Shown in pieces: positions 2,944 through 55,063 of a stretch of 64,000 nucleotides of DNA (the first letter of the stretch is position 1; each line of letters begins with the position of its first letter). This DNA is from Muricauda sp. SCSIO 65647 (GTDB taxonomy: Bacteria > Bacteroidota > Bacteroidia > Flavobacteriales > Flavobacteriaceae), in contig NZ_CP091037.1 of NCBI RefSeq assembly GCF_021534965.1, positions 3,665,501-3,729,500 of the forward strand. The letters are read 5' to 3'. The notes beneath the pieces are model-generated. The model ran no database searches and had not been told where the DNA came from. It saw only the letters and a list, made by a program, of their open reading frames with translations. The position numbers were made by a program, and so were the translations under genes.

Positions 2944-3012
2944 TTTGGTAGAGTCAAGTTGTTTAGACTAAAAGTACTGCTATTTTAGGGGAAGGAAAAA
3001 CGTTTTACAAAA

Positions 3013-37165: not shown

Positions 37166-37213
37166 TGCTTTCTACTATTTTTGTTAGTTCCTTTCTATTT
37201 TAAAACAACAAAT

Positions 37214-39373: not shown

Positions 39374-40804
39374 TTACAATACGCCCCTTCTTTCTTCGAG
39401 TAGGGCTTTGATCTCTTTTGCACGCTCTTCAGACAGGCTGTATTTCCACATCACCCAAATAGCCAAGGCTGCTGTTACTACAGGAATAATGATATCCGCG
39501 ATTCGTAGTTTGGTCAAAGTATCGACCGTTTGTGTGGCCGCATTACCATCAAATCCGATTAATTTCAATACCAGACCTCCTAAAACGAGCGCCAAGCCTT
39601 GCCCCAGTTTTACGACCCACCAGTATAATGCCCCAAAGGTACCCTCTTTCCTTGGCATGCCATTGTTGAGCTCATCTAGATCACAGACATCGGCGGTCAT
39701 ACTCATCATCAAGGTGAACAAACTACCCAAACCAAATGACATTAATGGTATTGGAATAAAAGAAAGCCAAACATTATCGGGAGTAAACGCCCACCACTTC
39801 AAAGCGTATCCAACTATAGAAAGGGCCGTTGAAATAATAAACGCCTTCTTTTTTCCCCATTTCGTGGCCATTGCCGATACAATCGGAATCACTAAAAATG
39901 CCGAGACCAATGCACCTATGGAGCTAAACCAGGCCGGCCATGTCGCGGTGGCTTCATAGCTTCCGTTAAAAATGTAAAAAACGAAAATAAAGAAGCTGAA
40001 AGACGCTACGATTTGGTAACCATTAAATACCAAGAAAGTAGCACCACATAGTTTCATAAATGGCTTATTCTTTACGGCCTCTCCTATACTGACAAATAGG
40101 TCTTTTAAATTACTGAATATAGAGGAAAAGGTCAATTTTTTTCTATTTCCCATTTGGGCCGAATCCATGCCCCTACAAAAAATAGCCGGCAAAAGCCCGA
40201 GTAGCAAACAAGCTACCCCAACATAAATTGCCATGGTTCTTACGCCTTCGGCTTGGTTGCTAAAAATATCTGGATCGGCAATGATCACCCAAAACCAAGG
40301 TACAATTACCCAAGCTATTAGACCGACTGTTTGTGAAAATGCCATTAAACGGGTTCGCTCGTTATAATCTGAGGTCATTTCATAGCCCAAGCCGACCAAG
40401 GGTGTAGCGAACATGGTATTGCCAATAAGAAAAACCATTGACATAATGAGGAAGTACCAGAAGTTATAGTCTGAAGAATTGTTTTCATTAAGCTGCCAAA
40501 GAAAAACAAAGGTAACGGCACTCAGTATGCCCCCAACCAAAATGTAGGGCCTTCTTCTACCCCACTTTGAGCTTGTATTATCAGAAATAAACCCCATAAT
40601 CGGATCGGTGATCGCATCAAAAAAACGGGGTAATCCACCCAACAAACCTGCCAAAAATGGATCCATACCGAAGGCTGTCAATAAGAAGAACATAAAGAAA
40701 CCCAGGGCTCCCGGATAAAGGTTCAAAACCAAATGGCCCGCTCCGAAGGCCGCTTTTTGCCCTAAGGGGACTATATCTTTTGCAGCAGTTTTACTTTCAG
40801 ACAT
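39374..40804 (-). CDS. GPH-type (MFS) glycoside:cation symporter, second copy
   Basis: 476 residues, about twelve hydrophobic segments. FDAITDPIMGFISDNTSSKWGRRRPYILVGG and MSMTADVCDLDELNNGMPRKEGTFGALYWW match the GPH group and the symporter at 37214 position by position. It should import laminari-oligosaccharides or glucose-containing disaccharides. It follows the GH30 gene by 30 bases and precedes the unknown membrane protein by 44 bases. Confidence 0.88.
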   Translation of the reverse strand: MSESKTAAKDIVPLGQKAAFGAGHLVLNLYPGALGFFMFFLLTAFGMDPFLAGLLGGLPRFFDAITDPIMGFISDNTSSKWGRRRPYILVGGILSAVTFVFLWQLNENNSSDYNFWYFLIMSMVFLIGNTMFATPLVGLGYEMTSDYNERTRLMAFSQTVGLIAWVIVPWFWVIIADPDIFSNQAEGVRTMAIYVGVACLLLGLLPAIFCRGMDSAQMGNRKKLTFSSIFSNLKDLFVSIGEAVKNKPFMKLCGATFLVFNGYQIVASFSFFIFVFYIFNGSYEATATWPAWFSSIGALVSAFLVIPIVSAMATKWGKKKAFIISTALSIVGYALKWWAFTPDNVWLSFIPIPLMSFGLGSLFTLMMSMTADVCDLDELNNGMPRKEGTFGALYWWVVKLGQGLALVLGGLVLKLIGFDGNAATQTVDTLTKLRIADIIIPVVTAALAIWVMWKYSLSEERAKEIKALLEERRGVL

Positions 40805-40834: not shown

Positions 40835-42358
40835 TTAGCTATTCTCTGGTATAGTTTCAACCATTATTGTCTGTATGGCCTGTCCGCTTATTTGAACAGC
40901 CGTGGAACGCTCTCCCAAAACAAGGGAAAAGTTTCTAGGTTCGGCCTCTTGATTTAAAATGACCACGGCGACCGATCCATCAAGATTTTCAACAGCAGTG
41001 ACCTGTAATACATCATCTCGGTTTTCAAAGCCTATTCTTATCGCACCGGGCCTGATATAACGACTAAAGTGTACCAATGTATGATATAGGGGTGTGAAGT
41101 ACACCTCATCAGTTTTGGGATCCACAATGACCGATGCCACACACCAGTTCTTGAACCAATTGGGGCCACCCTGTTTATTCAACACCATGTTCCAGTCGAT
41201 CCAACCGTCGACCCAATTGTTAAGGCAACCGATAATGTCTCGTGCATACCGGTATACCGGCACATATTTGGGGTGTAGGTGTTTGTCTTCTTCAGGTGCC
41301 CAGTCCCAACCCCAATCTGTCGCTTCTTTAGACCAGTACCATGAATCGTCTTGCCATTTGGGCACCTCTGCATCTACACAGGCCTCTGATTGGATCAGAT
41401 ACTTGTCAGGTGCCTTTTTATGGGCGTATTGCAAAGCATCTGGAAATACTTCATACGTGCTGGCGTACCAATGTACCGCGGTACCATCATAATATTTTGA
41501 GGTGGCCTCGTTCTTGTACATCTCATCGACCCATTCTTTCAAATGCTCACGGTTTTGGTCGTATCCCAAAATCTTGACTTCGGCTTTGCCATCGGCTTCC
41601 AATTTGGGCCCCAAATGGTTCTGTACAAATTGTGTCATTTCCTCAGGGGAATAGTGCATACTTTCCCAGTTATTTCCGTTACCAAGCGGCTCATTTTCCA
41701 CCGTTAGTCCCCAAATGTCAATACCTTCATTTTTGTATGCGTCAATATACTTGGAAAAAAACAACGCCCAGGTATCATAATATTTTGGCAATAACTTTCC
41801 CCCAACATAGTCATTGTTGTCTTTCATCCAGGGTGGGGCGGTCCATGGTGATGCCAAAATCTTGAACCCATCTTTTGATATCGCCATCGCCTCTTTAATA
41901 ATGGGGATGATGTCATCACGGTCTTCATCAATGGAAAAATGTTCCAGTTCTGTATCGCCCTCGACAGGTGCATAAGAATAATTGTTCAAAGAGAAATCAC
42001 AAGAGTTCATGTGCGTGCGCGTCAATGAATACCTTGCCCCGTCCTCACCAAAATAGGCTTCCAAAATTTTATGGCGGTTTTGTTTGCCCAGCTGGTTCAA
42101 CAAATGTGCCGATGCTTCGGTAAACGACCCTCCAAACCCTGTTATGGTCTGAAACTTTTGATCGGGCAACAGTTTTATGGTTGCCGTATTCCCATCGGAA
42201 GAAACCGCCGTTATTCTTTCTAGCTTATTGCCATTGGCCGAGGTTTCGTACACCGTCACGTGCAAAGACCGCTGTTTTTCGCTACACCCCAGCATACCCA
42301 TGGTCAATACGATAAAAATATAATGTTTCGGTGTTCCCATTCCCCGATATCTTACCAT
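40835..42358 (-). CDS. GH30-family glycosidase lipoprotein (probable beta-1,6-glucan-active)
   Basis: 507 residues; an alternative ATG at 42340 gives a cleaner signal peptide. The lipobox is GMLGC. Clan GH-A barrel: ITGFGGSFTEASAHLL near the start, acid/base Glu in LTVENEPLGN (Glu223 from the first ATG), nucleophile Glu325 in YLIQSEACVD, and a C-terminal beta-sandwich. GH30 members linked to laminarin loci remove beta-1,6 glucose branches. It should be anchored in the periplasm or on the surface. It starts six bases after the preceding GH17 gene. Confidence 0.9.
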   Translation of the reverse strand: MVRYRGMGTPKHYIFIVLTMGMLGCSEKQRSLHVTVYETSANGNKLERITAVSSDGNTATIKLLPDQKFQTITGFGGSFTEASAHLLNQLGKQNRHKILEAYFGEDGARYSLTRTHMNSCDFSLNNYSYAPVEGDTELEHFSIDEDRDDIIPIIKEAMAISKDGFKILASPWTAPPWMKDNNDYVGGKLLPKYYDTWALFFSKYIDAYKNEGIDIWGLTVENEPLGNGNNWESMHYSPEEMTQFVQNHLGPKLEADGKAEVKILGYDQNREHLKEWVDEMYKNEATSKYYDGTAVHWYASTYEVFPDALQYAHKKAPDKYLIQSEACVDAEVPKWQDDSWYWSKEATDWGWDWAPEEDKHLHPKYVPVYRYARDIIGCLNNWVDGWIDWNMVLNKQGGPNWFKNWCVASVIVDPKTDEVYFTPLYHTLVHFSRYIRPGAIRIGFENRDDVLQVTAVENLDGSVAVVILNQEAEPRNFSLVLGERSTAVQISGQAIQTIMVETIPENS

Positions 42359-42364
42359 TCATTT

Positions 42365-43663
42365 TTAATGATGAGCGTTGATTTCACTTGCCGTAGGGGG
42401 TACCAATACTTCACTCAGCAATGCCTCTTTATCACCATTATAGGTTTTTGTTATGGGGTTGCCATTTCTGGTCAATCCTTCAAACATACCTTTGTCCACC
42501 TCGTCCCAAAGCGCATATTTGGCCTTGCCATCAACCGTAAACAGGCCAAAGTGCTTTTCAGAATTTCCTGGATTGTTACCACCTTTCCATGGCTCATCAA
42601 AACCTTCGAAATAAAAGCATGACATTTTGGCTTCGTTTGTCCAGTCACGCATGTGTTGATAGTACAATGCTTCTTTGTACTCGTCACAGGCTTTAGAGCC
42701 CTTTGGCCCATAATAACCATCAGAAAAACTTGCCCACCCCGTTTCACCGATATGAATGGACTTGCTGATCCCCAGACTTTCCATATAATCCTTTACGGCT
42801 TGGTATTGGGCCATGGCATAATGTTTTGCCCTTAGCATGGCCACATCAACTATTTCCAAATGGGTCATGTCTGTATGTCCTTCAATCGGTTTTTGCCAAA
42901 ATTCTGGCTGGTAGTGCGTGTCGTGCATTGGGTAGGTATGAATGGAAAGGAAATCTACCGCTTCTATTAATTTATTCAAATCCTCGACATGGTATTCGTC
43001 TCCACCGCCACCCCATGACGCAAAATTATCGGAGCTTGTAACCCATAAATCCTTTGAAAGCTTTCCTTCTTTTTTAAGGTCTTGTAAATGGTTGACCCAT
43101 TTTAAGATTACGTCGGGTTGCACATAGTAGTCAGCTGCCCATTTGACCATGGCCTCATTGCCAACGGCCAGCACCTTTACGATGTCAGGATACTTGTTGG
43201 CAAGCCTGACGGCTTCCTCAACCTGTGGTTTGTTGTCTGCACTTTCTTGGTTGTGATCCGGTTCCATACCCGTCCAGGCATTAAGACAATCAATCCATAT
43301 ACCCAGCATAACATACATTTCCAATTCAGGGTCTTCTTTTTTCAGCTCAGTGATGGCCTGTAGCAAGTTAGCTGCTTGTGGTTTATGTACTTTATAGGTA
43401 CGAAGCACTTTAATGCCCATTGCGGCCAATATTTTTACATCCTCCTTAAGCTCGTCCATTGTTGGCTCAATGTTATGGTCGGCATATCGGTACCCTCCGT
43501 ATGACATGGCCAAATATTCAGGGTGTCCTAAAATGTCCTTTGCGCTTAGACTCAATTCTTTCGTCACGGTTTCGGTTTTGCTTTCTGTTTTTGAATTGTT
43601 TTTGCATGAAAATATGAATACTGGCAACAACAAGTACATCATTATTCTTATATGGTGCTTCAT
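42365..43663 (-). CDS. GH17-family beta-1,3-glucanase lipoprotein
   Basis: About 432 residues from the ATG at 43663; a second ATG three codons earlier (43672) is possible. The signal peptide ends in lipobox IFSC. Catalytic acid: Glu170 in VLAVGNEAMVKW. Nucleophile: Glu307 in IHIGETGWASF (numbering from 43663). The GH17 barrel is longer than in the cytoplasmic paralogue at 36281. It should cleave linear beta-1,3-glucan chains, probably in the periplasm. It starts 17 bases after the phosphorylase gene, so the two are co-transcribed. Confidence 0.9.
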   Translation of the reverse strand: MKHHIRIMMYLLLPVFIFSCKNNSKTESKTETVTKELSLSAKDILGHPEYLAMSYGGYRYADHNIEPTMDELKEDVKILAAMGIKVLRTYKVHKPQAANLLQAITELKKEDPELEMYVMLGIWIDCLNAWTGMEPDHNQESADNKPQVEEAVRLANKYPDIVKVLAVGNEAMVKWAADYYVQPDVILKWVNHLQDLKKEGKLSKDLWVTSSDNFASWGGGGDEYHVEDLNKLIEAVDFLSIHTYPMHDTHYQPEFWQKPIEGHTDMTHLEIVDVAMLRAKHYAMAQYQAVKDYMESLGISKSIHIGETGWASFSDGYYGPKGSKACDEYKEALYYQHMRDWTNEAKMSCFYFEGFDEPWKGGNNPGNSEKHFGLFTVDGKAKYALWDEVDKGMFEGLTRNGNPITKTYNGDKEALLSEVLVPPTASEINAHH

Positions 43664-43680
43664 CTGTATCATGCCTATTT

Positions 43681-46600
43681 CTATTTTTTGAAGGATACGA
43701 TTATTTTCTCGATTGCTCCAGTTCTATTCAAAACTTTGGCACTTGTTTCAGCATCGAGTTCAAGGCTGTCGAATTCAAGCGTCGTATTTTCATGGAAATC
43801 TACTTTTATGCCCTCCCTTTCTCCCAATTCATAAACAATCGGCACTTGACAATAGGTAAAACAAAGAGCGTCTTTTTCCAATTCAATTTTTTGCACTTCT
43901 TTTTTAACGTTAGTGTATTTGAAGGTCTTAGCGTGCTGTAAATACTCTTCTTTTCGTAACAAGTGCGGACTGAAAATCAATCTGCCGCCCTTTACAAAAA
44001 CGCCCAGTTCACCGAAGCGACTAAGGATATCTTCTTTTACCTGACCTGTCATTCCCGGTTGTTGGGCTCCCTTTCCTGCAGGGGTATGGGAATAGGGATC
44101 CGTAGGAAAAGCACCATATAATTCAGGCGACTTATGCACCCCTATGCCTTCATTGATTTCATAATAATGTTCTAGCAACCGACCTATGATCTCCTCATTT
44201 TCCTTTTCATCAATCGCCCTCAAACAGGTTTCTTGAACAGCAAGAAGTAACTTAGAAACCATGTGCCAGTAGATCGAGCCCAGCCCTTCATAGCCAAAGA
44301 ACGTTCCCGATCGCCCTGTAAAGGCCTTGTGGTTAAAAACTTCCTCGAAAGCTTGCAATAGCAATGGGGCATCCTTTTTTACGAGATCTCCATATTTTTC
44401 AGGTAATTGTGCCAAGGCCTCTTTTAAGCTATTGGCATTGTTGAAATTTCCATTGAAATGATAACCCCCATCAATATCTTTCTCTATTATTTCTGTATTC
44501 CCATCTTCTAGAAGCCGATTTGCCAAATCTGATTCTGCAATATTGGCCGATGGTATGTTGTTCTTTCGCGAAAAACGGGGAAGTTCTTTATTGGGATATA
44601 GAATATAGCTATACTGATCATGCCTAAAAAGTGTACTGTTCTTGAGTGCATCCAAGACTTCGAGAGAAGCTTTGCCCGACAGATATTTGGCGCTAAGTAC
44701 CGCCACCTGACCTTCCAACATCTCTGATAGATATGAAATGGAAACTTCCGTATCATTCTCGACCGTCATCAAATTATAGGCGTGATATAGGTTGTCAGGG
44801 CGTTTGTTGGCATCTATACTATGCTCTAAGTATTGCCGGGTAACCTGAACAAATTTCAGCACATCTGTCTTTGTAATGGTTGTTTTATTGGCACTAAAAC
44901 CCTTTTTATAAATTGTGTTTCTGTACTGGCTACCAGCATTTCCCAATCCATCCACCACAGTTTTTCTATCCGTGTCAGAAACCTTACCGGAAAGAATTGA
45001 TTGGTTTTTGATAAGTACATCGGTTACATTATTGAAAAATAAGATGAGTTCTTCTGAAAGATAATAGCCATCATTTGGTATTGTTTCAACCAAATCTTCA
45101 AAGAACTTTAAAAACCTTCTCAGATAGTACAAGGTGACCATAGAGATACCATTGCCCACCAAGGCATTATTGGCATCGTTCCATTCGGGTCTTTGGGTGT
45201 TCATCCAAATACCTCCCTCGGGTATCAAATTGGACACTTTCGCCAAAACCGTGGCCAGTAATTTTTCAAGCAGGTTTACATGATGGATCGATTGATGGGC
45301 ATCTTTCAACAAGGCTGCATCGGCACCTATTTGTCCTCTTTCCCTATTGATCTCATCATCGAGTTCAGCATCAAAGAGAATAGTGTCTTTTGGGTCTTTA
45401 AGAATATCCCCGTAGTCTTTTATTTTATAGGGCACATTGGCGTACACAAAAATATTTTCATTGAAATATGTCGCCAATTTGCTGGGGTAATGGTCTTCAA
45501 TAAATTCTAAAAATTTTAGGAGATAAATAATTTGATGGTCTCCCCAATAACCGATGTATGACCAAGGGTCATCGGGTTCTATGGTTTCCCAATCAAAACC
45601 GCCCTTGGTCACCCGATATGGGTTATAGCCATCAAAAGTGGTCGCGTTGACAAACTTGAAGATCATGCTCTCAATAAAGACTGGATAAGAGTGCGCCAAG
45701 GCTTCCCAATTTTGAAAAATATCGCGCCAATTGCCCTCATAATCCAAAATCTTTTTGCCGTCATCTGTTTCGGTATTGATCGAGAACTTATTCCATGGAC
45801 GGCTTGGATCGCCATGTCTTCTGCTAAATTTCAAGGGCATGTATTCACAAGCCAGTCTTTTGAAATCGGCATCTTGGCTATCTTCAGTACATTTTTTCAA
45901 AAAACTGCACGAAAATTTGTCGGGAAGTTCTTCTATGGCCGTCTTCTTGCGCTGATAAACTTTTTTATTTGCCTTTTCAATATAGTTGCGAAAATCTGTT
46001 CTTTCAATTTCATAGCCGTTATCAAAAATACCTCCACGCATGATATTGAAGAGTACGTTTGAAAAATGCCGTGTATCCCTCATTTTATCTGCTGTCAGTT
46101 GTATGGCATCTGCAGCAGTATTCAACCTTAACAATTCTTCAGAGCCTTTTTGAATATCCTTTTCGATAAGACCAAAAAGGTTCTTTTCTGTTTTGATCAA
46201 ATGGGAAATCTCGGCCATATCAACTTTTGACTGATTTACCTCGGCGATCAACATCCAGTGCTTTTCGGCATTTGGTTTTAAACTGACATCCGCATTTACG
46301 AAATAAGCTCCCTTTTCGGCTTTGATGTCCACTTCTTGCTCAATTGCCCGTCCACCCCTAAAAGCATCCAACTGCATGGAAGAAAGCAAGTGTTTTGCTT
46401 TTTCCAAACCTGTTGACCAAACCGTGGTCGCTTTCAACGCTTCACTGGGCTCTGCCCTATCAACGATGATTGCACTGAGGGCATAAATGCCCAAACCTAT
46501 ATCGGTTTCAAGCTCGTTTTTCTTATAGGCATCTACAAGATTGCTACTTGCATTTTGCAATGCCGAAGCCACACCATAGGTCATGATATTCTGAATTCCA

Positions 46601-47136
46601 TCCAGAACCGCTATTTTGACCTCATCTTCGCCGTTATTGACAAGGGTCGATTTCTTTACAAAACCAAATCTGCTGCTAGCGTTCCAATGGTAGCGAAAGG
46701 TCAGGCCCAAATCTTCATTTATTTCTTCAAAGACAATTTTGTTGCCATAGCTGTTTTTGTAAAGATTTCTATGGATTTCATAGATACCTGGATATGTATC
46801 TGAAAAAGGCTCCCACAAGAAGACTTTTCCCTTGGCCTGTACCTTAAGTATGGTCTTGCTGCCTGTTATATCGGCTGATTCTGTTATTTTATCATCTGTA
46901 TAGTACGGAAACAAAGCCGACTCAGCGTTTTGTCTACCGGCCGATAATCCGCCATTGCTCGAGATGAACATCCAATGATTTGAATGGCTCACAATGCTCA
47001 TGAAGAAAGGGCGCATGGCATCATAGTTTGAGATCTTGTAATAGTCTTCTTCTTCAAACTGAACCTGTTGGCCCTTGATTTCCTTTTTAGCCGTCTCGAT
47101 TTTTGAGTTGCCTATATAAATATCCTTTCCAGACAT
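43681..47136 (-). CDS. GH149-like beta-1,3-oligoglucan phosphorylase
   Basis: 1151 residues from the ATG at 47136. A TTG nine codons earlier is in frame but less likely. There is no signal peptide, so it is cytoplasmic. The N-terminal beta-sandwich begins DYYKISNYDAMRPFFMSIVSHSNHWMFISSNGGLSAGRQN, as in inverting GH94-like phosphorylases, and an (alpha/alpha)6 barrel follows. GNWRDIFQNWEAL carries the likely general acid Asp472. The length (over 1100 residues) favours GH149 (GH161 is the alternative) over ordinary cellobiose or laminaribiose phosphorylases of about 800. It would split beta-1,3-gluco-oligosaccharides with phosphate into glucose-1-phosphate. The operon partners (GH16, GH17, GH30) support this. 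Confidence 0.82.
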   Translation of the reverse strand: MSGKDIYIGNSKIETAKKEIKGQQVQFEEEDYYKISNYDAMRPFFMSIVSHSNHWMFISSNGGLSAGRQNAESALFPYYTDDKITESADITGSKTILKVQAKGKVFLWEPFSDTYPGIYEIHRNLYKNSYGNKIVFEEINEDLGLTFRYHWNASSRFGFVKKSTLVNNGEDEVKIAVLDGIQNIMTYGVASALQNASSNLVDAYKKNELETDIGLGIYALSAIIVDRAEPSEALKATTVWSTGLEKAKHLLSSMQLDAFRGGRAIEQEVDIKAEKGAYFVNADVSLKPNAEKHWMLIAEVNQSKVDMAEISHLIKTEKNLFGLIEKDIQKGSEELLRLNTAADAIQLTADKMRDTRHFSNVLFNIMRGGIFDNGYEIERTDFRNYIEKANKKVYQRKKTAIEELPDKFSCSFLKKCTEDSQDADFKRLACEYMPLKFSRRHGDPSRPWNKFSINTETDDGKKILDYEGNWRDIFQNWEALAHSYPVFIESMIFKFVNATTFDGYNPYRVTKGGFDWETIEPDDPWSYIGYWGDHQIIYLLKFLEFIEDHYPSKLATYFNENIFVYANVPYKIKDYGDILKDPKDTILFDAELDDEINRERGQIGADAALLKDAHQSIHHVNLLEKLLATVLAKVSNLIPEGGIWMNTQRPEWNDANNALVGNGISMVTLYYLRRFLKFFEDLVETIPNDGYYLSEELILFFNNVTDVLIKNQSILSGKVSDTDRKTVVDGLGNAGSQYRNTIYKKGFSANKTTITKTDVLKFVQVTRQYLEHSIDANKRPDNLYHAYNLMTVENDTEVSISYLSEMLEGQVAVLSAKYLSGKASLEVLDALKNSTLFRHDQYSYILYPNKELPRFSRKNNIPSANIAESDLANRLLEDGNTEIIEKDIDGGYHFNGNFNNANSLKEALAQLPEKYGDLVKKDAPLLLQAFEEVFNHKAFTGRSGTFFGYEGLGSIYWHMVSKLLLAVQETCLRAIDEKENEEIIGRLLEHYYEINEGIGVHKSPELYGAFPTDPYSHTPAGKGAQQPGMTGQVKEDILSRFGELGVFVKGGRLIFSPHLLRKEEYLQHAKTFKYTNVKKEVQKIELEKDALCFTYCQVPIVYELGEREGIKVDFHENTTLEFDSLELDAETSAKVLNRTGAIEKIIVSFKK

Positions 47137-47224
47137 TGATTTGATTCGATTCGATTTGAACAATGATTAAAGCAATGAAGGGTCGCTACACAAATATGCA
47201 TCGACCCTTTATTAAACCTTATTT

Positions 47225-49522
47225 TCAATTCGCCGTAATGGCGAAGTCATCTACATAAAAGGTCACGTCTGCCGGTGTATTGCCTCCGTCAATATTACCA
47301 GGTTTAACGACTAACATGGTGTATACGGTTTCGTCCATGCTGTTTGGAAATGCATTGGCAGATAAATCAAAAGACATTTCTACCCACTCATTGGCCGAAG
47401 TCAGGGTCTGGTTATACGGCGCTGGATTACCAATCATACCACCATCATTGGGTATAGCGACAATCTCCAATCGTATTTCTTGATTGGGCAATGTACTATA
47501 TATTTTAAAGGTAATGGTAGAATTGTTGGTAAATGTACCCGTAGCAAATACATTCTGAAAACCACCAAATCCGTCGGCACCACTAGGCTTTGTAAATTGA
47601 TATACTTTGTCAGAGGTATTGATACCACCAGAAACGGGATTGTCAACAATTTCCTTAGTCTGCAATGAACCAAAAGATTCATTGAACCCTTCACAGTTTT
47701 CAAAGTCTACCGGAAAGGCGGTAACATCCATAGTGGGGCCACCGGAGCATCCACCTCCTCCAGAACTTCCGTTGCTGCACAGCCTTATGTTGTCGAACTG
47801 TATGGTCCAGTCAGCGCTGCCGTCGCCCGCCGTGCCGTTGTCCATGATGAGCGTGATGGCGGTGACGGCGCCCATATTGCCCGCCACGGCGCTAAAGTCA
47901 TAGGTGATGGTCTCCCAGCCCGTTCCGGACGTTGGAACGATCACCTCGATGTTCAGCCCCTCCAACTTGAACAGGAGCTGCCTCACGGCTACCGAGTACA
48001 CGTCTATCGAGAACACGCCCGAGTCGAAATCGATGTCAGGGTCGACCTCAATGGTGATGCCCCCGAAGACCTCGCCCGCATTCTTGACATACTGCCCCAC
48101 TTTGGCGCTCATGTTCACCGAAGTGTCGGGATTGTCGATGATTGTACCGACCCCGCCGCCAAAATTGCTGAAGATGCTGTCGTCAGACGCTTCGAAGTCG
48201 TTCACCAGTTCACCACCGGCACAGGCCTCTAGTGTATTGCCCCCGCCCGAGCTTTCGTTGCTGCACAGCCTTATGTTGTCGAACTGTATGGTCCAGTCAG
48301 CGCTGCCGTCGCCCGCAGTGCCGTTGTCCATGATGAGCGTGATGGCGGTGACGGCGCCCATATTGCCCGCCACGGCGCTAAAGTCATAGGTGATGGTCTC
48401 CCAGCCCGTTCCGGACGTTGGAACGATCACCTCGATGTTCAGCCCCTCCAACTTGAACAGGAGCTGCCTCACGGCTACCGAGTACACGTCTATTGAGAAC
48501 ACGCCCGAGTCGAAATCGATGTCAGGGTCGACCTCAATGGTGATGCCCCCGAAGACCTCGCCCGCATTCTTGACATACTGCCCCACTTTGGCGCTCATGT
48601 TCACCGAAGTGTCGGGATTGTCGATGATCGTACCGACCCCGCCGCCAAAATTGCTGAAGATGCTGTCGTCGGACGCTTCGAAGTCGTTCACCAGTTCACC
48701 GCCGGCACAGGCCTCAATGGAACCGCCCATATTACCGCCCGATGTGGTTTCTACTTGCTCAACATCATCAATGTAGAAAGTACCTGCCGTGGTACCTGGG
48801 CCATCAACAAATAAGGTCAGTCTAGAAAAACTGTCAGAAGAAGTGAAATCAAAGGAAATCATCTCCCAGCCGGTTCCGCCATGACTTGCCGTAACTTCTG
48901 TATCGGTACCGGTTCCCTCTTCCAATTTCAACAACACATCTATGGGTGCATCTGACCAAAAATTCATGGTGACGGTCTTGTCATCCGTTAAATCCAAAGG
49001 CATTCCCAAATTGAAAAAGATGCCTTCAAACTCGGCCCCAATATTGGTAATGGCCCCTACTTGCGATGCAACATCGTTGGACCCCCCAGGTGCTGGATTG
49101 GCCACAATTTCAAAAGCCGCCCCACCAAACGTACCCACATCGTAATTTACATTCGAATCGTCAAAGGTAATCGGTGTGGTAATCGATTCTGGAACCACAA
49201 TGACCAATTGGTCTTCAAAAGTACTGGAAGCCCCCGCGTTGTTTGAAGCAGTGAGCGTAACCGTGTAGGTACCCGTTTCATAGGTTTTTACCGGGTCGAT
49301 TTCAGTCGATGTGGTTCCATCCCCAAAATTCCATTCAAATGAATCTGCATTTTCTGACAGATTGATAAATGTTACGGTACCCGAGTCTTCAATGAACGTT
49401 TGCGTAAATCTAGCTATGATCTCAGGAAGTTTATTGGCATCGTCATCGTCTTCACATCCTAAAAAGGACATGGCCAAAATCATGACGAAAAGAATTCTGG
49501 CTTTAATTGGTACTAGTCTCAT
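47225..49522 (-). CDS. PKD-domain lipoprotein with four carbohydrate-binding-like modules
   Basis: 765 residues. Signal peptide with lipobox SFLGC. Domains in order: PKD (about 35-115, with FEWNFGDGTTSTEIDPVKTYETGTYTVTLTASN); a jelly-roll, CBM-like module (about 120-265); two identical modules (about 270-422 and 432-584); and a last related module (about 595-765). Each module ends in a strand like FYIDDVEQ or IQFDNIRLC. No catalytic motif is visible. It is probably a surface glycan-binding protein for laminarin. The duplicated modules are markedly richer in G+C than the rest of the gene. Confidence 0.8.
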   Translation of the reverse strand: MRLVPIKARILFVMILAMSFLGCEDDDDANKLPEIIARFTQTFIEDSGTVTFINLSENADSFEWNFGDGTTSTEIDPVKTYETGTYTVTLTASNNAGASSTFEDQLVIVVPESITTPITFDDSNVNYDVGTFGGAAFEIVANPAPGGSNDVASQVGAITNIGAEFEGIFFNLGMPLDLTDDKTVTMNFWSDAPIDVLLKLEEGTGTDTEVTASHGGTGWEMISFDFTSSDSFSRLTLFVDGPGTTAGTFYIDDVEQVETTSGGNMGGSIEACAGGELVNDFEASDDSIFSNFGGGVGTIIDNPDTSVNMSAKVGQYVKNAGEVFGGITIEVDPDIDFDSGVFSIDVYSVAVRQLLFKLEGLNIEVIVPTSGTGWETITYDFSAVAGNMGAVTAITLIMDNGTAGDGSADWTIQFDNIRLCSNESSGGGNTLEACAGGELVNDFEASDDSIFSNFGGGVGTIIDNPDTSVNMSAKVGQYVKNAGEVFGGITIEVDPDIDFDSGVFSIDVYSVAVRQLLFKLEGLNIEVIVPTSGTGWETITYDFSAVAGNMGAVTAITLIMDNGTAGDGSADWTIQFDNIRLCSNGSSGGGGCSGGPTMDVTAFPVDFENCEGFNESFGSLQTKEIVDNPVSGGINTSDKVYQFTKPSGADGFGGFQNVFATGTFTNNSTITFKIYSTLPNQEIRLEIVAIPNDGGMIGNPAPYNQTLTSANEWVEMSFDLSANAFPNSMDETVYTMLVVKPGNIDGGNTPADVTFYVDDFAITAN
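47771..48229 (-). repeat. Intragenic 459-bp module, second copy in protein order
   Basis: Identical to 48257-48715 except for five substitutions that I can see (for example CGCCGTGCC versus CGCAGTGCC and TCTATCGAG versus TCTATTGAG). All are silent: the two translated modules are the same residue for residue. The offset is 486 bases, an exact multiple of three. Confidence 0.93.
48257..48715 (-). repeat. Intragenic 459-bp module, first copy in protein order
   Basis: First of the two identical modules as read in the protein (starting EACAGGELVNDFEASDDS). It is separated from the next by a short Ser/Gly-rich linker. Codon choice here is strongly G/C-ending, unlike the flanking modules of the same gene. 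Confidence 0.93.
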
Positions 49523-49534
49523 TTTTTATAGAAG

Positions 49535-50401
49535 TTAGTTTAGTTTATTATCAAATACTCTCTCATATTCATATACTCTCACATAGTCCACTATCATGGT
49601 TTGTGGAAACTCGGTCTCTTCATTGGGCATACCTACAAAAGTGCCCCCTACCGCAAGATTCACCAGAATAAAGAAAGGCTTGTCAAAAACCCAAGGACCT
49701 GTTACATCTTCTGGGGTAATTTGATTGTACAGTACATCATCAACATAGAAGTTTACAAATTCAGGACCCCACTCAATACCAAAAATGTGGAACCCCGTAT
49801 CAAAGCGGTCGTTTTCAAGGGTAAACTCTTTAGAAATCGCCTCTCCGGCCGAGTATCCCGGACCATGAACGCTTCCAATCAGTACAGAAGGTTCTTGGCC
49901 CCTATATTCCATGATATCAATTTCTCCGGCTCCTGGCCATGGGTTTTCATCAATATCTGCGCCCAACATCCAAAATGCGGGCCAAATACCTTGACCCCAA
50001 GGCAAACGAATTCGAGCTTCAAACCTTCCATATTTTTGCTCAAACAAGTCTTTGGTCAACAATCTTGCAGAGGTAAATTGGGCTCCTTCAAAAGATTCTT
50101 CACGGGCGGTAATCAGCAATACTCCATTTTCTACAATTACGTTTTCAGAACGATCTGTATAATATTGTAGCTCTTGATTGCCCCAGCCATCACCATCGGG
50201 CCCTCTACCAATATCGTAGGCCCAAAGACTTTGATCGGGTGCGCCGTCAGAATCAAATTCGTCAGCTAAAACTAGGGTGGTCAACGTAGTTACCATCTGC
50301 TCATCATCGGTCTCACAGCCTAAAAAAACCACTGTGACCACAAATAATGCTGAACAAAAAAGAGATGTTCCAATTCTTTTATAATTCGATGTCTTATTCA
50401 T
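49535..50401 (-). CDS. GH16-family endo-beta-1,3-glucanase (laminarinase) lipoprotein
   Basis: 288 residues. The signal peptide ends in lipobox VFLGC. The GH16 catalytic motif is GEIDIMEYRG with nucleophile Glu160 and acid/base Glu165. The substrate-cleft sequence RFEARIRLPWGQGIWPAFWMLG and the FHIFGIEWGPEFVNFYVDD stretch match the laminarinase subfamily (GH16_3) rather than agarases or carrageenases. It should cut laminarin at the cell surface. It lies 18 bases after the binding-protein gene and 12 bases before the PKD-protein gene. Confidence 0.92.
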   Translation of the reverse strand: MNKTSNYKRIGTSLFCSALFVVTVVFLGCETDDEQMVTTLTTLVLADEFDSDGAPDQSLWAYDIGRGPDGDGWGNQELQYYTDRSENVIVENGVLLITAREESFEGAQFTSARLLTKDLFEQKYGRFEARIRLPWGQGIWPAFWMLGADIDENPWPGAGEIDIMEYRGQEPSVLIGSVHGPGYSAGEAISKEFTLENDRFDTGFHIFGIEWGPEFVNFYVDDVLYNQITPEDVTGPWVFDKPFFILVNLAVGGTFVGMPNEETEFPQTMIVDYVRVYEYERVFDNKLN

Positions 50402-50419: not shown

Positions 50420-51865
50420 CTACTCTCTGTAGAGGTATATGTTGTCAACTGATATATTTGAAATAGTACTTGAAACGAAGCTTACCTGTGCAAGGTTACT
50501 GGTACTGGTCAAGCCTGTAAATCCTCCACCCGTTCCATTGGAAAAGCCGGTAAGCGGTATGTCTATACCGACCCATTCACCACTTGCCAATTGTGAATCG
50601 TCAATGGGCGTTGCTGCACCGACCGAATCATCAGAGTTCAAACCGTTGGCGACCCCATTGGCGCCAAAATCAGCCAGCTCGATGGTCAACGCATCGCCCG
50701 CATCAAGGGCCTCATCAATTTTTACATCAACATGAATATGGGTCATTTGGGTGGCGTCTACGGTTGGATTGGAAAACTCTACCGACACAAAGTTTAGATT
50801 GGTATAGCGAATAACGCTTTGGTCGGCAACCGCTATTGCCCCGCCAAGGGTCGTGGAACCACCAAAAAATCCATTAAAAAAGTCAACATTTATATTGTTG
50901 TACGAATCGCTAAATATCGAAATCACGTCTTCAGGGTTTCGTGCTGGCGGAATGGGCGCAAAGTCAAAGGGCCCCAATACGTTCAACTGCAAAGAACCAG
51001 CAGCGGCAACATTTGCCAAAGTAGCCGTGATATTGGCCTCACCAATCGCCAATACTGATACGACCCCCAACTCATTTACAGTGGCAACCGCATTGTCTGA
51101 AGATTCAAAATCAAAATAAGAAGGTTTTACCAATACCGTTACATTGTCTCCTGAGCCCACATTGAACGTCTGGGTGAGACCGGTCAATGTAATCGGGATA
51201 TCCAAGAAGGCTTCTTGTGCTACATCGGCACCGTTCAAAATAGCAGGTCTAGCCTGAGCCACCGTACCTAATTTTTCAAATTTGATTTCATCGAACCAAA
51301 GAACGTATCCGCTTTCATCGTCTTCATTCTCTGCACCTTCGGCCAACCAGAACAAGCCTGTTAGGTTATTTAACTTTGAGGCATCCGGTATCGGAATCAC
51401 ATATTTCTCCCATCGGGTACTGACCAGCAAATTTTGCATCGTCACCTGAAATTTATTGTTGGTACTACCATCGATACCAAATCCTATTTCATTAATGTCT
51501 GCCGCTTTGGATGCCTTGGCATAAAATGTTAACGCATCAAAACCAGAGACATCTCTATTAGCCGTTGTATTAAAAGCAGCACCTACAAAACCATTGCCAA
51601 AAGCGGGCACATCAAATCGCATTGATGCGCTGCCCGCAAAAGCCTCGTCGGTATCTACGCTAAAAGCTTCAGGGTCAGCACCACCGTCCACAAAGGGAAA
51701 ATAGTCCAATCCTGCAGAAAAAGTATCGATGAAGACATCGCCATTCGGCGGGAAGGTGGCAAACTCCACATCATCTGAAAAGTCTCTTTCACAGCTTGAA
51801 AAAGCAATGAGCGTCAAGCCAAAAAGAAGTACAAAACGTGTATTGATATATTTAGAATTTTTCAT
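50420..51865 (-). CDS. Surface glycan-binding-type lipoprotein (CBM-like, Ig-like, CBM-like)
   Basis: 481 residues. The signal peptide ends in lipobox AFSSC. Order: a jelly-roll module (about 40-195, ending GYVLWFDEIKFEKLG); a bacterial Ig-like BIG2-type domain (about 215-300, with NVTVLVKPSYFDFESSDNAVATVNELGVVSVLAIGEANITAT); and a second jelly-roll module (about 305-481, ending ISNISVDNIYLYRE). No catalytic motif is visible. The arrangement is typical of surface glycan-binding proteins that sit next to SusD in polysaccharide loci, but here there is no SusD. It starts 12 bases after the glycosidase-barrel fusion gene. Confidence 0.78.
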   Translation of the reverse strand: MKNSKYINTRFVLLFGLTLIAFSSCERDFSDDVEFATFPPNGDVFIDTFSAGLDYFPFVDGGADPEAFSVDTDEAFAGSASMRFDVPAFGNGFVGAAFNTTANRDVSGFDALTFYAKASKAADINEIGFGIDGSTNNKFQVTMQNLLVSTRWEKYVIPIPDASKLNNLTGLFWLAEGAENEDDESGYVLWFDEIKFEKLGTVAQARPAILNGADVAQEAFLDIPITLTGLTQTFNVGSGDNVTVLVKPSYFDFESSDNAVATVNELGVVSVLAIGEANITATLANVAAAGSLQLNVLGPFDFAPIPPARNPEDVISIFSDSYNNINVDFFNGFFGGSTTLGGAIAVADQSVIRYTNLNFVSVEFSNPTVDATQMTHIHVDVKIDEALDAGDALTIELADFGANGVANGLNSDDSVGAATPIDDSQLASGEWVGIDIPLTGFSNGTGGGFTGLTSTSNLAQVSFVSSTISNISVDNIYLYRE

Positions 51866-51877
51866 TTTTCAATCTTT

Positions 51878-54800
51878 TTATTTCCCAATATTGATGTGTA
51901 TATAGGTCATGATTTCCCATTCGTTGCCGTTGTCAAACCCGACCGGACTTATCGTGGGCTCATTTGAAGATCCTTCCCCGGCATTTGGTAAATATCTCGG
52001 TGAGAATTCATTCAGCGATCGCCATATGCCACGTATGCCCACCTGTGTACTTGGCAAAATGAACCAATCGGGCTTGCCCAAGGTGGTCGATATATCCAAC
52101 ATCAATTGTACCGGGTAGGTCAAGTTGAAGTCTCGATGGTAGTCAAATGGACCCCAATCATTGATTTTTTGTTCGTAGCGCAGCTTGAAGTTTTTGTAGA
52201 TCATTCGAACGTCTCCGCCAAAACGATTGATCAATCGTTGTGAATCTCCATTTCCTTGTCCGTTACCGTAGTAAAAATTACCGATAATGCCTAGGTCCGG
52301 GCCAATTTTTGAGACCATTCTAGAATGAACCTCCCAAAGGTCTTGCGCTGGTGCTGAATTGGGAAAGGCGAAGAACGTACGATCGGCCTGGAAACCGATA
52401 TGGGCATCCATGGTCGTGGGCAGGTGACGGTATACAAAGCCCAGATTCATGGCGAACTTGGCATCTTCGGCCCTGTCATTGTCCCATTCATACATCCAAG
52501 TACCTGGTGTAGGGTCATAGGTGAAAAGTATCTCCCCAGCTGTGGTTTCACGGTTCGCCCGAACGGAGAAAGGATCATCAATAATATTCCGCAATCGCCC
52601 AGGGCCTTGAACATCTTGTGGCATGGCCTCAACCAGTGGTTTTTGCCACATAAAATTGGGCGCGATCTGAAAATTTCCCGCAGCAAAAGTAAATCCTGAG
52701 AACACACTGGTAACATTACCGCTTCCGGTATCTCTCAGTTTCCAACCCGTAAAGGTGAGTGTTTGGTCGGCACCGCCATTTGCAATTAGGCCCATTGCCG
52801 ACGCCTGGCCATACCAATTGAATTTTCCACCCTCATAGGTAATCTTTGCCTTTCCTCCCCAATTATCGCTTGACTGGATTCTATCTTCAAAAACCACATA
52901 ATCACCCGGGGTTCCGGTGACGTCTTGAAAGGCGATGCCATTCAATGGGCTACCTGCCCAAACACCGCCCAATGTGATGCCAAACTTGCCAAACTCACGT
53001 TCGATGGCGATAGAGGCCCTTTCAGTGGGCCAAGGTGGAATGACACCACTACGTACTTGGTTGACATCTAAAACACGGCGGCCGTTTTCATCTAAAACGA
53101 CATCGGTTTCAAAGTCCCTGTGATAGATACCGGTAATATCAAACTTGCCAATATGCCTTTTGTACTTGAAGAGCATGGTCGGATTGGCCCCCCACCACAA
53201 CTGCGGCCCCACAGCTACTTTCAAGCCTTTCAACACACCTTTGCCGTCAAGTTCCGCTCCTAGTATTTCTCCATTATAGATATCGAGGTTCGGACCATAA
53301 TTGGCTTCAGGATAAAAGCCAAAAAAGTCTCCTTCATACCCCCAGTGGTAATGCCCGGTTCTATAAAAGCCCCTTATATCGAACTCTTTTGCATTCCATT
53401 CAAATTCAGCTTGGTACACCCGTACCCTATTTACATCTGAAACAACCACATCTCCCTGATCGGTACTCACATCGATCGGACGGGCATTGTTCTCATAAAA
53501 AATCTCATTGATGGGGTTTTGTGCCACGTTTCCGACAACGTTGACATTAACCTCTGCCCGCATGTTCGGGGCCGGATTTCCTTCCACTCCAACGAAGTAC
53601 GACTGCAAATGGTCAAATCCCAATTGATTGGGGAACGTATTCGGGTCGTCTGGATTTGGGGTATCGGGAGTTGTTATAAGACTGCCGCCGGTACTAAAGG
53701 TGGCAAACTTGGCCTGAAGGTTGCTAATTCTAAGCAAGTTACTTTGCTCTCCCTGCAAAGCCGCTTTGTCACCCCGAGCCTTCAATACGGCATCCATCAA
53801 TTCGATGTTATCAAAGTGGTTCTGTACAAAATTTAGGTCCACCCCTTCACCGTAAGGATCCACTTGATGGGCCTCTTTCAGTGCATAGTAGGCGGCACGG
53901 GGATATAGGTCATAAAGCCCCCTTGGATTTGTAGCGCCCTTGGCACAGATACCGAACCATTCTTCGTTCATGTTATTGGCTCCCACTTTTGCCAGATCAC
54001 GTGCGTAGCCACCATTAGACCATGAAGCATTGTTGTCATGCACATCGGCATTTTTTCTATCGTCAAAACCAAATTTCCACCAACCATCACTGAACTGAAA
54101 AGTAAACCCTCCAATGGAATTGCCTGCTTTGCCAAGGCCAGCAGCATTCTCATATATTTCTTTCCAATTGCCCACCATGTAATAGGCCTGTGACAACTGG
54201 TCTTCCTTGTTCTCAATGGCATTGAATGCATCGGCTCCGAACTCAGTGAACATAACGGGCTTGTTCAATTTGTCTTTGACCACTTGAAACATATCACCGA
54301 ATGAAACCCCGCGATAGGTGTTGGTTCCATAGATATCCACATCTTCACATTCATCTGCAACGATGTCTATGAACAAGACGTCTCCGTTACAAATGGCCAC
54401 GGGGTGGTTGGCGTCCAGTTCTTTCATCTTTTTGGCCGCCTCGTTCATTAATCTGTACATAGGCCGTCCCCTGCTCTCCCCTATAAATTGTATTCTACCT
54501 TCATCATCGGGAAAATCTTCGGTTTCGGCCCCGGCCCAGAACAACCCATAGTTATTTTCGTTGCCCAACAGATACATCAGAAGCCCAGGCGTATTTTTGT
54601 AGCCTTGTACCAAATTTTCGATTTCCGTCATTAAAAACTCTGCGGTTTTGGGGTCATCATAAATAGTGACCGGTGTCCAAACACCATCCAAGGTCAAGCC
54701 ATATCGACCAAAGGAGTGATTGAGCATTGTGTAGATCCCGTAATTCTCATAGATGTATTTGATCCATTTTGCCGGAACACCTGTATATTGGCGAATAACA

Positions 54801-55063
54801 TTGACCCCCATATTTTTTAACAGGGACATTTCGGTATCAAGACCGGCTTTGATGACATCATCTGACTTTTCCCAAAATTTGGCATTCACGGTATTGGTGC
54901 CAATGGGTATGTAATCCCAGTTCATACCATTGATCATGAAATCCTTACCGTTGACCACCAACTTTTGGCCTTCTCCTTCGTCTACCACGACCACCTTGTC
55001 TGTCTGGGCATAGATTCCGGCCACAAACAAAAAGAGAAGTAATCTCAGCAAATTTTTTTTCAT
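51878..55063 (-). CDS. Clan GH-A glycosidase fused to an outer-membrane beta-barrel (porin-like)
   Basis: 1061 residues from the ATG at 55063, which gives a clean signal peptide (MKKNLLRLLLFLFVAGIYAQ). An upstream in-frame extension is basic and unlikely to be used. Residues about 25-385 form a TIM-barrel glycosidase: MNGMNWDYIPIG-like start, acid/base Glu169 in LLGNENNYG, nucleophile Glu274 in VMFTEFGADAF. A linker (about 385-480) follows. Residues about 485-1061 alternate polar and hydrophobic residues in long strands with turns (VAVGPQLWWGANPTMLFKYKR, FDITGIYHRDFETDVV, FNWYGQASAMGLIA, MNLGFVYRHL, YEQKINDWGPFDY). That pattern indicates an outer-membrane barrel of many strands. The glycosidase family is not certain (GH2-like, GH5-like or GH158-like). 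It is the first gene of the operon. Confidence 0.78.
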   Translation of the reverse strand: MKKNLLRLLLFLFVAGIYAQTDKVVVVDEGEGQKLVVNGKDFMINGMNWDYIPIGTNTVNAKFWEKSDDVIKAGLDTEMSLLKNMGVNVIRQYTGVPAKWIKYIYENYGIYTMLNHSFGRYGLTLDGVWTPVTIYDDPKTAEFLMTEIENLVQGYKNTPGLLMYLLGNENNYGLFWAGAETEDFPDDEGRIQFIGESRGRPMYRLMNEAAKKMKELDANHPVAICNGDVLFIDIVADECEDVDIYGTNTYRGVSFGDMFQVVKDKLNKPVMFTEFGADAFNAIENKEDQLSQAYYMVGNWKEIYENAAGLGKAGNSIGGFTFQFSDGWWKFGFDDRKNADVHDNNASWSNGGYARDLAKVGANNMNEEWFGICAKGATNPRGLYDLYPRAAYYALKEAHQVDPYGEGVDLNFVQNHFDNIELMDAVLKARGDKAALQGEQSNLLRISNLQAKFATFSTGGSLITTPDTPNPDDPNTFPNQLGFDHLQSYFVGVEGNPAPNMRAEVNVNVVGNVAQNPINEIFYENNARPIDVSTDQGDVVVSDVNRVRVYQAEFEWNAKEFDIRGFYRTGHYHWGYEGDFFGFYPEANYGPNLDIYNGEILGAELDGKGVLKGLKVAVGPQLWWGANPTMLFKYKRHIGKFDITGIYHRDFETDVVLDENGRRVLDVNQVRSGVIPPWPTERASIAIEREFGKFGITLGGVWAGSPLNGIAFQDVTGTPGDYVVFEDRIQSSDNWGGKAKITYEGGKFNWYGQASAMGLIANGGADQTLTFTGWKLRDTGSGNVTSVFSGFTFAAGNFQIAPNFMWQKPLVEAMPQDVQGPGRLRNIIDDPFSVRANRETTAGEILFTYDPTPGTWMYEWDNDRAEDAKFAMNLGFVYRHLPTTMDAHIGFQADRTFFAFPNSAPAQDLWEVHSRMVSKIGPDLGIIGNFYYGNGQGNGDSQRLINRFGGDVRMIYKNFKLRYEQKINDWGPFDYHRDFNLTYPVQLMLDISTTLGKPDWFILPSTQVGIRGIWRSLNEFSPRYLPNAGEGSSNEPTISPVGFDNGNEWEIMTYIHINIGK

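Follow-up and report, generated by a model that had tools for sequence, protein, structure and literature searches.

A glycosidase and a predicted outer-membrane barrel in one reading frame

The 64-kb window analysed here (64,000 nucleotides, positions 3,665,501 to 3,729,500 of contig NZ_CP091037.1 from Muricauda sp. SCSIO 65647; coordinates below are those of the window unless another locus is named) carries on its minus strand a reading frame that begins with an ATG at 55063 (MKKNLL...) and ends at 51878. Its product, designated P0001, combines a signal peptide, a clan GH-A (GH, glycoside hydrolase) TIM-barrel glycosidase and a predicted outer-membrane beta-barrel. An alternative in-frame ATG lies 32 codons upstream; the later start was preferred because the signal peptide follows it directly. 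Frame 1 of the plus strand is interrupted by many stops across 51878-55063. A sequence-only reading of the window had proposed that the three parts form a single polypeptide, and this is borne out by the sequence, by Pfam and by AlphaFold2 models. The full-length model (81 sequences; predicted template modelling score (pTM) 0.50) shows a TIM barrel, a helical linker and antiparallel strands that continue through the C-terminus. Of the five classes compared, the linker is the least conserved (mean top-residue frequency 0.73).

The joining of glycosidase and barrel is a genuine and widespread architecture that has been overlooked. Homologues with both halves intact are common: at least 578 relatives were found among at least 590 pattern matches in GTDB genomes, and the best 80 of these relatives, a choice that favours full-length copies, are open through both halves, which rules out an assembly fusion of two genes. 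Among 99 genomes searched (the source genome and relatives), a full-length copy was found in 14, the source included. The barrel was present in 35 of 395 sampled Bacteroidota genomes, in two of them as fragments only, and all 33 near-full-length barrel matches lay in frames of 1,028-1,101 residues, the 3 other matches being fragments; an assembly artefact is ruled out by these frames as well. The scans of the 395 genomes scored at most 3 or 4 candidates per genome, and a diverged barrel-only gene could escape them. The family has been overlooked because annotation ends at 'glycoside hydrolase family 2 TIM barrel-domain containing protein'.

The glycosidase half

Residues 32-282 of P0001 match the Pfam family Glyco_hydro_2_C (PF02836) with E 1.1e-8, and the same family was matched in all 14 family members scanned (best E 1.5e-10). 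The N-terminal sugar-binding and sandwich domains of GH2 enzymes are absent (Pfam, E<=1), and the TIM barrel directly follows the signal peptide. The best structural match of the full model in the VIA search was the GH157 enzyme LaGH157 with laminaritriose (Z 29.5, root-mean-square deviation (rmsd) 2.8, 310 residues), next to GH2 enzymes (up to Z 28.1) and GH158 enzymes (up to Z 27.1); Foldseek placed GH158 and GH157 almost tied at the top for this half. Sequence identity to the GH158, GH157 and GH2 structures among the VIA matches listed is 13-22%, and profile sequence matches reached E 0.0018 for a GH158 chain and E 0.00076 for BuGH158.

The two glutamates that the sequence-only reading had named as catalytic, Glu169 (in 'GNENNYG') and Glu274 (in 'TEFGADAF'), are placed as it said and are invariant in 81 sequences, as is N168. 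They align to residues 115 and 198 of the BuGH158 chain, each 22 below the published E137 and E220, a consistent offset. Thus, P0001 has the predicted fold and the catalytic pair of GH157 and GH158, with GH2 enzymes within Z 1.4 of LaGH157, so that these three families cannot be told apart by the fold. Judged by its model, the enzyme half is a GH-A glycosidase, for which no CAZy number is claimed; it shares the clan GH-A fold with BuGH158, LaGH157 and GH2 enzymes, whereas the solved chains of these families have no membrane barrel, and the fusion lacks the GH2 sandwich domains. The GH157 and GH158 families are reported to include beta-1,3-glucanases (PMC10229575, PMC7157763). Because of the fold relatives and the operon neighbours, the predicted substrate is probably beta-1,3-glucan. 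Weak matches to Glyco_hydro_72 in 2 of 14 enzyme halves and to two other GH families, in 1 each, were set aside.

The barrel half

Since the VIA search with the full model returned mostly TIM barrels, the barrel half was modelled and searched alone. With 80 homologues, the model has 24 strands (predicted local distance difference test (pLDDT) 76, pTM 0.75), a number that was counted on the predicted structure and could shift by two. The outer-membrane-type pattern noted in the sequence-only reading, and its expectation of a TIM barrel plus a barrel of 14 or more strands, are reproduced in the models; the length of this part is nearer 620 residues than the approximately 575 it had given. All 50 VIA matches listed are membrane barrels, namely AlgE, ushers, OprD-type porins, TonB receptors, a SusC-like chain, VDAC and others. 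The usher PapC was matched end to end (7lhh_C; Z 14.2, rmsd 4.8, 371 residues, model residues 1-621), and the barrel of BT1762-1763 over nearly the same span (5t3r_D; Z 12.4, rmsd 5.5, 372 residues, model residues 4-621). The best 50 Foldseek matches add LptD and MtrB, the title of one (8agd_A) being silent on the barrel fold; the TonB-dependent BtuB3G3 came first and ZnuD fifth, with LptD between.

Hydropathy alternation along the predicted strands was 2.20, a value that none of 500 within-strand shuffles reached (1.40 +/- 0.22); the strands were taken from the model, hence this test is not independent of it. P0001, as modelled, has the attributes of an outer-membrane beta-barrel protein: besides the signal peptide, its antiparallel strands are amphipathic and even in number, the turns on the periplasmic side are short and the outer loops long. 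By sequence, the C-terminal half of P0001 belongs to no Pfam family at E<=1, except for a sub-threshold match to NHL (E 0.98), and a search for solved relatives of the barrel gave 0 matches up to E 10. Weak matches to TIGR01786 (2 of 16 barrel members) and Gli521 (1 of 16), as well as three Pfam matches that look like chance, each in a single barrel member, were set aside. Soluble repeats in the C-terminal half are ruled out by the barrel-only model and its structural matches. The barrel may act as an open pore for glucans.

Topology and conservation of the barrel

The 12 loops after odd strands are 7-36 residues long (mean 23.6), and the 11 turns after even strands 2-20 (mean 4.8). In outer-membrane barrels, the long loops face outside; therefore both ends of the barrel, and hence the enzyme, would face the periplasm. 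The glycosidase is accordingly predicted to be periplasmic, both from the loop lengths and from the fact that usher- and SusC-type barrels match the barrel model over its length. Of the two orientations entertained in the sequence-only reading, the second, with the glycosidase on the inside, is favoured, whereas cleavage at the surface is better assigned to the GH16 lipoprotein of the operon.

Outer loops are usually the most variable part of such proteins. In this family, their conservation comes close to that of the strands (mean top-residue frequency 0.76 vs. 0.78), 5 of the 12 lying at 0.83-0.98 and loops 5, 7 and 21 at 0.96-0.98. Apart from one conserved 20-residue turn (residues 850-869), 9 of the 10 periplasmic turns are only 2-6 residues long. 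The conserved outer loops could be a glycan or partner site outside, and the turn a docking site for the enzyme inside. A lipobox pattern picks up 7 of the 82 fusion proteins, but their tails suggest that the signal peptide was mistaken for a lipobox.

A lipoprotein that accompanies the barrel

The gene that follows the fusion encodes a surface-type lipoprotein with a Big_2 domain and a CBM11-like region (Table 1). Of 82 fusion loci, 79 have a homologue of it directly after the fusion gene; among the remaining three, L081 and L086 are cut off by the end of the contig, and the locus from Bacteroides has a profile homologue (441 bits). In a phylum-wide set of 20 loci, drawn from the 33 fused rows in the 395-genome scan, the lipoprotein gene was adjacent in 20/20 and GH16 was present in 19/20.

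Among the loci of the tree described below, the lipoprotein was present in 50 of 51 fused loci, the exception being a 4,070-base contig, and in 0 of 8 loci with stand-alone glycosidases; the profiles derive from the genes around fused genes, and the stand-alone stretches cover 8-18 kb. Independent pairs agreed 5/5 in most of 200 pairings and 4/5 in the others. GH149 was still found near the enzyme in 7 of 8 stand-alone stretches. GH16, present in 49 of 51 fused loci but also in 3 of 8 stand-alone ones, accompanies the barrel less strictly than the lipoprotein does, and the paired test gave no signal (median p = 0.25). These observations suggest that the barrel goes with the lipoprotein and the enzyme with the phosphorylase pathway. 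The partner lipoprotein is an addition to the account in the sequence-only reading, which had not tied it to the barrel.

Distribution and history of the fusion

The enzyme half was matched strongly (>500 bits) at 43 places, of which 33 lie in long reading frames; the frames at the other 10 are short. Eight of the 10 short-frame glycosidases were analysed; G424 (a 364-residue frame) and G328 (two internal stops) were left out. The tree comprised 67 enzyme halves, from 31 of the 82 fusion loci (29 of the 80 and two plasmid records), 28 phylum-wide loci and 8 distant rows. Stand-alone glycosidases fall at five places among the fused ones. In L204 (G215), a stand-alone glycosidase gene lies at 2037-3626, and in frame after its stop approximately 54 residues match the start of the barrel, a tail that, on sequence grounds, is a trace of barrel loss. 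Thus, the fusion looks old and the barrel appears to have been lost several times. In this quick tree, 23 of 64 inner branches are open, and the stand-alone L201 lies near the root, so that the fusion may have been gained after that branch. Eight distant glycosidases (L016-L023), in frames of 338-399 residues, are 29-36% identical to the enzyme half, have no barrel and come from further members of the source organism's taxonomic family.

The fusion also occurs in a Bacteroides, in record NZ_OY725931.1 (L031), labelled Bacteroides finegoldii plasmid 29. The presence of valine-tRNA ligase, rpsA and glutamine synthetase genes gives this record the look of a chromosomal fragment; the 'plasmid 29' label was therefore not used, and a mobile-element reading was dropped. 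The version of the operon in this record ends in GH3 (bglX), and no GH149 was seen in it.

The operon and its neighbours

As the sequence-only reading had placed it, the fusion gene stands at the head of a beta-glucan operon. The operon is of the laminarin type and has 11 genes, GH16, GH149, two GH17, GH30 and two MFS genes among them; from 51878 down to 36281, each gene is separated from the next by 6-61 bp (Table 1). GH16, GH17, GH30 and GH149 occur together in it, as expected of a laminarin locus of this kind.

Table 1 Features of the fusion gene, its operon and the adjacent regulator
Feature	Position in window	Strand	Basis
Whole gene, glycosidase/outer-membrane barrel fusion, 1,061 residues (P0001)	51878..55063	-	Open reading frame, relatives
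Signal peptide, residues 1-19, without lipobox, ending IYA before Q	55007..55063	-	Sequence; model helix 2-18
Clan GH-A TIM-barrel glycosidase domain, residues 23-400	53864..54997	-	PF02836; structural matches
Linker, residues 401-440, mostly helix	53744..53863	-	Full-length model
Predicted 24-strand outer-membrane beta-barrel, residues 441-1061	51881..53743	-	Barrel-only model, structural matches
Glu169, predicted acid/base	54557..54559	-	Invariant in 81 sequences; aligns with BuGH158 E137
Glu274, predicted nucleophile	54242..54244	-	Invariant in 81 sequences; aligns with BuGH158 E220
Conserved 20-residue periplasmic turn, residues 850-869, candidate glycosidase docking surface	52457..52516	-	Frequency 0.94, 81 sequences
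Partner lipoprotein, Big_2 and CBM11-like region below Pfam cut-off, signal C-ERDFSDD	50420..51865	-	Pfam; next gene after fusion
GH16 lipoprotein, surface-type signal C-ETDDEQ	49535..50401	-	PF00722 6.2e-23
PKD-domain lipoprotein, internal duplication, surface-type signal C-EDDDD	47225..49522	-	Domain scan, signal pattern
GH149 beta-1,3-glucan phosphorylase, without visible signal peptide, presumably cytoplasmic	43681..47163	-	NF058639 1,811.6 bits (cut-off 1,150)
GH17 lipoprotein, without acidic surface signal (C-KNNSK), predicted periplasmic	42365..43672	-	Family scan
GH30 lipoprotein, without acidic surface signal (C-SEKQ), predicted periplasmic	40835..42358	-	Family scan
MFS_2 sugar transporter	39374..40804	-	Family scan
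211-residue protein between MFS genes, hydrophobic stretches by eye, no Pfam family (E<=0.001)	38694..39329	-	
MFS_2 sugar transporter	37214..38635	-	Family scan
GH17 enzyme without lipobox, final operon gene	36281..37165	-	Family scan, signal pattern
Regulator, Reg_prop/Y_Y_Y sensor with LuxR-type helix-turn-helix	55366..58155	-	Homologue in 68/82 loci

Surface lipoproteins of Bacteroidota have acidic residues directly after the cysteine (PMC5080379). When at least 2 acidic residues at +3 to +7 were taken as the signal, and only proteins with a lipobox were counted (69/79 partner, 71/83 GH16, 36/39 PKD, 15/19 SusD, 44/61 GH17 and 31/40 GH30 proteins), the signal was present in 52/69 partner lipoproteins, 63/71 GH16 and 33/36 PKD proteins, with 14/15 in the SusD control, compared to 8/44 GH17 and 11/31 GH30 proteins. 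This pattern suggests that GH16 and the binding proteins are on the surface, GH17 and GH30 in the periplasm and GH149 in the cytoplasm. The PKD lipoprotein gene contains two 300-nucleotide copies (47754-48053 and 48240-48539) that are 98% identical at a spacing of 486 nucleotides, apparently a recent duplication.

SusC, SusD and plug domains

Uptake in Bacteroidota usually relies on separate SusC (TonB-dependent) and SusD proteins. The SusC profile TIGR04056 had no match in P0001 (NCBIfam, E<=1) or in the window, compared to at least 57 places in the genome, 18 of them over the cut-off (56 of 68 candidates scored). SusD likewise was not matched in the window (15 matches in the genome), nor was the Plug domain PF07715 in P0001 (E<=1) or in the window (47 in the genome). 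The susC/susD pair that defines a canonical polysaccharide utilization locus is thus not present here, in agreement with the sequence-only reading. Among the 82 fusion loci, SusD was found in 19, and 65 had no SusC in the stretch examined (up to 10 kb on each side, less on short contigs). Membership of P0001 among TonB receptors or SusC proteins was rejected because neither the plug nor the SusC profiles were matched, although a TonB receptor is the first Foldseek match of the barrel.

A proposed uptake mechanism and its alternatives

From the fusion, its predicted fold, conservation, operon and partner, each supported by computation, we infer an uptake mechanism in which the fusion would be the outer-membrane component of a SusC-independent uptake complex for laminarin (beta-1,3/1,6-glucan), together with the surface lipoprotein, a reading to which we assign a probability of about 0.6. 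The GH-A glycosidase would hang at the periplasmic mouth of the 24-strand barrel, and the partner lipoprotein would bind glucan and sit on the conserved outer loops, taking the position that SusD-type proteins have on SusC. Laminarin would be cut by the surface GH16, the pieces would be retained on the surface by the Big_2/CBM11-like and PKD lipoproteins and would pass inward via the barrel, where the tethered glycosidase may cut or transglycosylate them as they emerge, trapping them and keeping the gradient inward. Periplasmic GH17 and GH30 would then finish the degradation, the MFS carriers import the products and GH149 phosphorolyse them, a pathway proposed from tested family assignments. 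Whether the fusion is a catalytic importer in the strict sense, that is, a plug-less barrel of an unnamed family with a lipoprotein lid, in which periplasmic hydrolysis rather than TonB energy makes beta-glucan uptake one-way, is a more tentative proposal, which we hold at somewhat less than even odds.

Several observations weigh against this reading. The full-length pTM of 0.50 does not fix the position of the enzyme relative to the barrel, and the Foldseek query TM-scores to single barrels are low (0.23-0.44 in the best 50 matches). The partner test involves five independent pairs (p = 0.0625-0.125), with which 0.05 is unreachable. The stand-alone enzyme relatives do not settle the side of the membrane: 4 of 8 show a lipobox, of which one (L198, C-AEIQEK) carries the acidic signal and the other 3 do not. 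The discussion of a Muricauda paper terms the GH2 of its locus a beta-1,6-glucosidase (PMC13188888), so that the fusion enzyme could act on beta-1,6 linkages. No energy source is evident for uptake through the barrel. SusC is found in 17 of 82 fusion loci, where glucan can have another door, and, elsewhere in the source genome, matches to SusC (1,054,958), SusD (1,058,866) and GH16 (1,061,538) lie on one strand (G000:C1:1054958-1062062). This 1.055-1.062 Mb cluster is perhaps a second laminarin locus, like the short locus of PMC6298971, and with it present the barrel is probably not the only route but an addition to SusCD in this organism.

The same cluster, together with the SusC homologues near 17/82 fusion genes and with the existence of barrel-less glycosidases, 2 of 8 of which adjoin SusC/SusD, would be expected if the barrel were an anchor and not a pore, fixing a periplasmic glycosidase beside SusC/SusD systems, of the same or another locus, through which the sugars enter. 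However, a 24-strand barrel with conserved outer loops exceeds the needs of an anchor, for which a lipid would suffice; moreover, the barrel accompanies a surface-type lipoprotein (50/51 vs. 0/8), and 65/82 fusion loci lack SusC in the stretch examined, so we consider such a role unlikely. Somewhat less probable still is a gated or energised transporter, in which the TIM domain plugs the barrel from below and moves on binding of substrate or partner, or which is driven by an unrecognised TonB coupling; it would then resemble a SusC that has an enzyme as its plug. The long conserved periplasmic turn could dock or gate, the partner lipoprotein and GH16 mirror SusD and its surface hydrolase, and the first and fifth places of BtuB3G3 and ZnuD in the Foldseek order, as well as the weak TonB-receptor match TIGR01786 in 2/16 barrel members (best 0.0067), point the same way; by contrast, P0001 and the window have neither a Plug domain nor a SusC match, and the model has 24 strands, compared to 22 in TonB receptors.

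An N-terminal passenger followed by a C-terminal barrel is also the order of type V secretion, and the surface-signal window of the stand-alone L198 contains two acidic residues, so that the barrel might carry the glycosidase outside, like an autotransporter, with the first cut made extracellularly. Given that the loop lengths place both barrel ends in the periplasm, that 24 strands with long conserved loops are unlike a 12-strand translocator, and that 3 of the 4 lipobox-bearing stand-alone relatives have no acidic signal, whereas the GH16 of the operon has it, surface display appears quite improbable. An artefact of assembly or annotation, or soluble beta-repeats in place of the barrel, would agree with the absence of a Pfam family over the C-terminal half of P0001; with the best 80 relatives fused, 33/33 barrels in long frames and 50/50 VIA matches listed being membrane barrels, we find this explanation barely credible.

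Laminarin uptake by Bacteroidota is thought to depend on SusCD. If the proposed uptake complex exists, it would provide a second laminarin door, from marine Bacteroidota to Bacteroides, which some bacteria may use together with SusCD or in its place, and would offer a test of whether hydrolysis can power import across the outer membrane; diatoms alone are estimated to produce approximately 5-15 Gt of laminarin per year (PMC6246565). The laminarin operon type is already known, and the fusion would be a variant of Bacteroidota glycan uptake with a fair chance of being a separate mechanism. The analysis also provides a barrel family for which no Pfam entry was found, along with its partner lipoprotein, and the fusion marks laminarin loci overlooked by a locus definition based on susCD.

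Comparison with known systems

As in SusCD systems (TIGR04056 and PF07980), the gene for a large barrel lies in a glucan operon beside those for a lipoprotein and a glycan hydrolase, both of the cell surface, and the barrel is predicted to pass oligosaccharides into the periplasm; unlike them, the fusion has no plug, SusC or SusD match, has 24 predicted strands and another lipoprotein, and has a glycosidase at the place of the plug. Chaperone ushers (PapC, FimD) also have 24 strands and were matched end to end, but they secrete pilins and bear a different plug and periplasmic domains, so that the likeness is one of fold only. Another parallel is the atypical locus CHU_1276-CHU_1280 of Cytophaga hutchinsonii, with a barrel-like protein, an SGBP-B-like protein and an endoglucanase; its outer-membrane protein is predicted to be barrel-like with hits to TonB receptors, and the SusC/SusD pairs of this organism are dispensable for cellulose use (PMC12016534). 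The substrate there is cellulose, and no fused enzyme is described in the accessible text (PMC12016534).

Among the literature matches listed, a set that mostly excludes subscription journals and preprints, no description of a glycosidase fused to an outer-membrane barrel was found in the text available. An NS4-clade genome is mentioned as having a laminarin locus that lacks susCD (PMC10108472). The laminarin locus of Muricauda lutaonensis is reported to contain a GH2 beta-glycosidase, GH16, GH149, GH17, GH30 and MFS genes (PMC13188888); judged by position, this GH2 beta-glycosidase is probably the same gene in the same operon, and contig SGIU01000001.1, listed in that paper, carries a fusion homologue (L037). 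There it is described as an enzyme only: the main text of the paper has no 'outer membrane', 'porin', 'TonB' or 'SusD', and 'SusC' appears once (PMC13188888).

The fusion resembles FbGH17B of Formosa, in which a transporter and a glycosidase (MFS-GH17) are joined in one chain within a laminarin locus; its authors suggest that hydrolysis is coupled to uptake, and the Formosa laminarin loci are reported to be laminarin-induced (PMC6246565). FbGH17B is a protein of the inner membrane, whereas the present fusion is predicted to be in the outer membrane, and, if it functions as proposed, it would be the outer-membrane counterpart of that inner-membrane fusion. In the operon described here, the MFS and GH17 genes at 36281-38635, which are fused in Formosa (PMC6246565), adjoin and stay separate.

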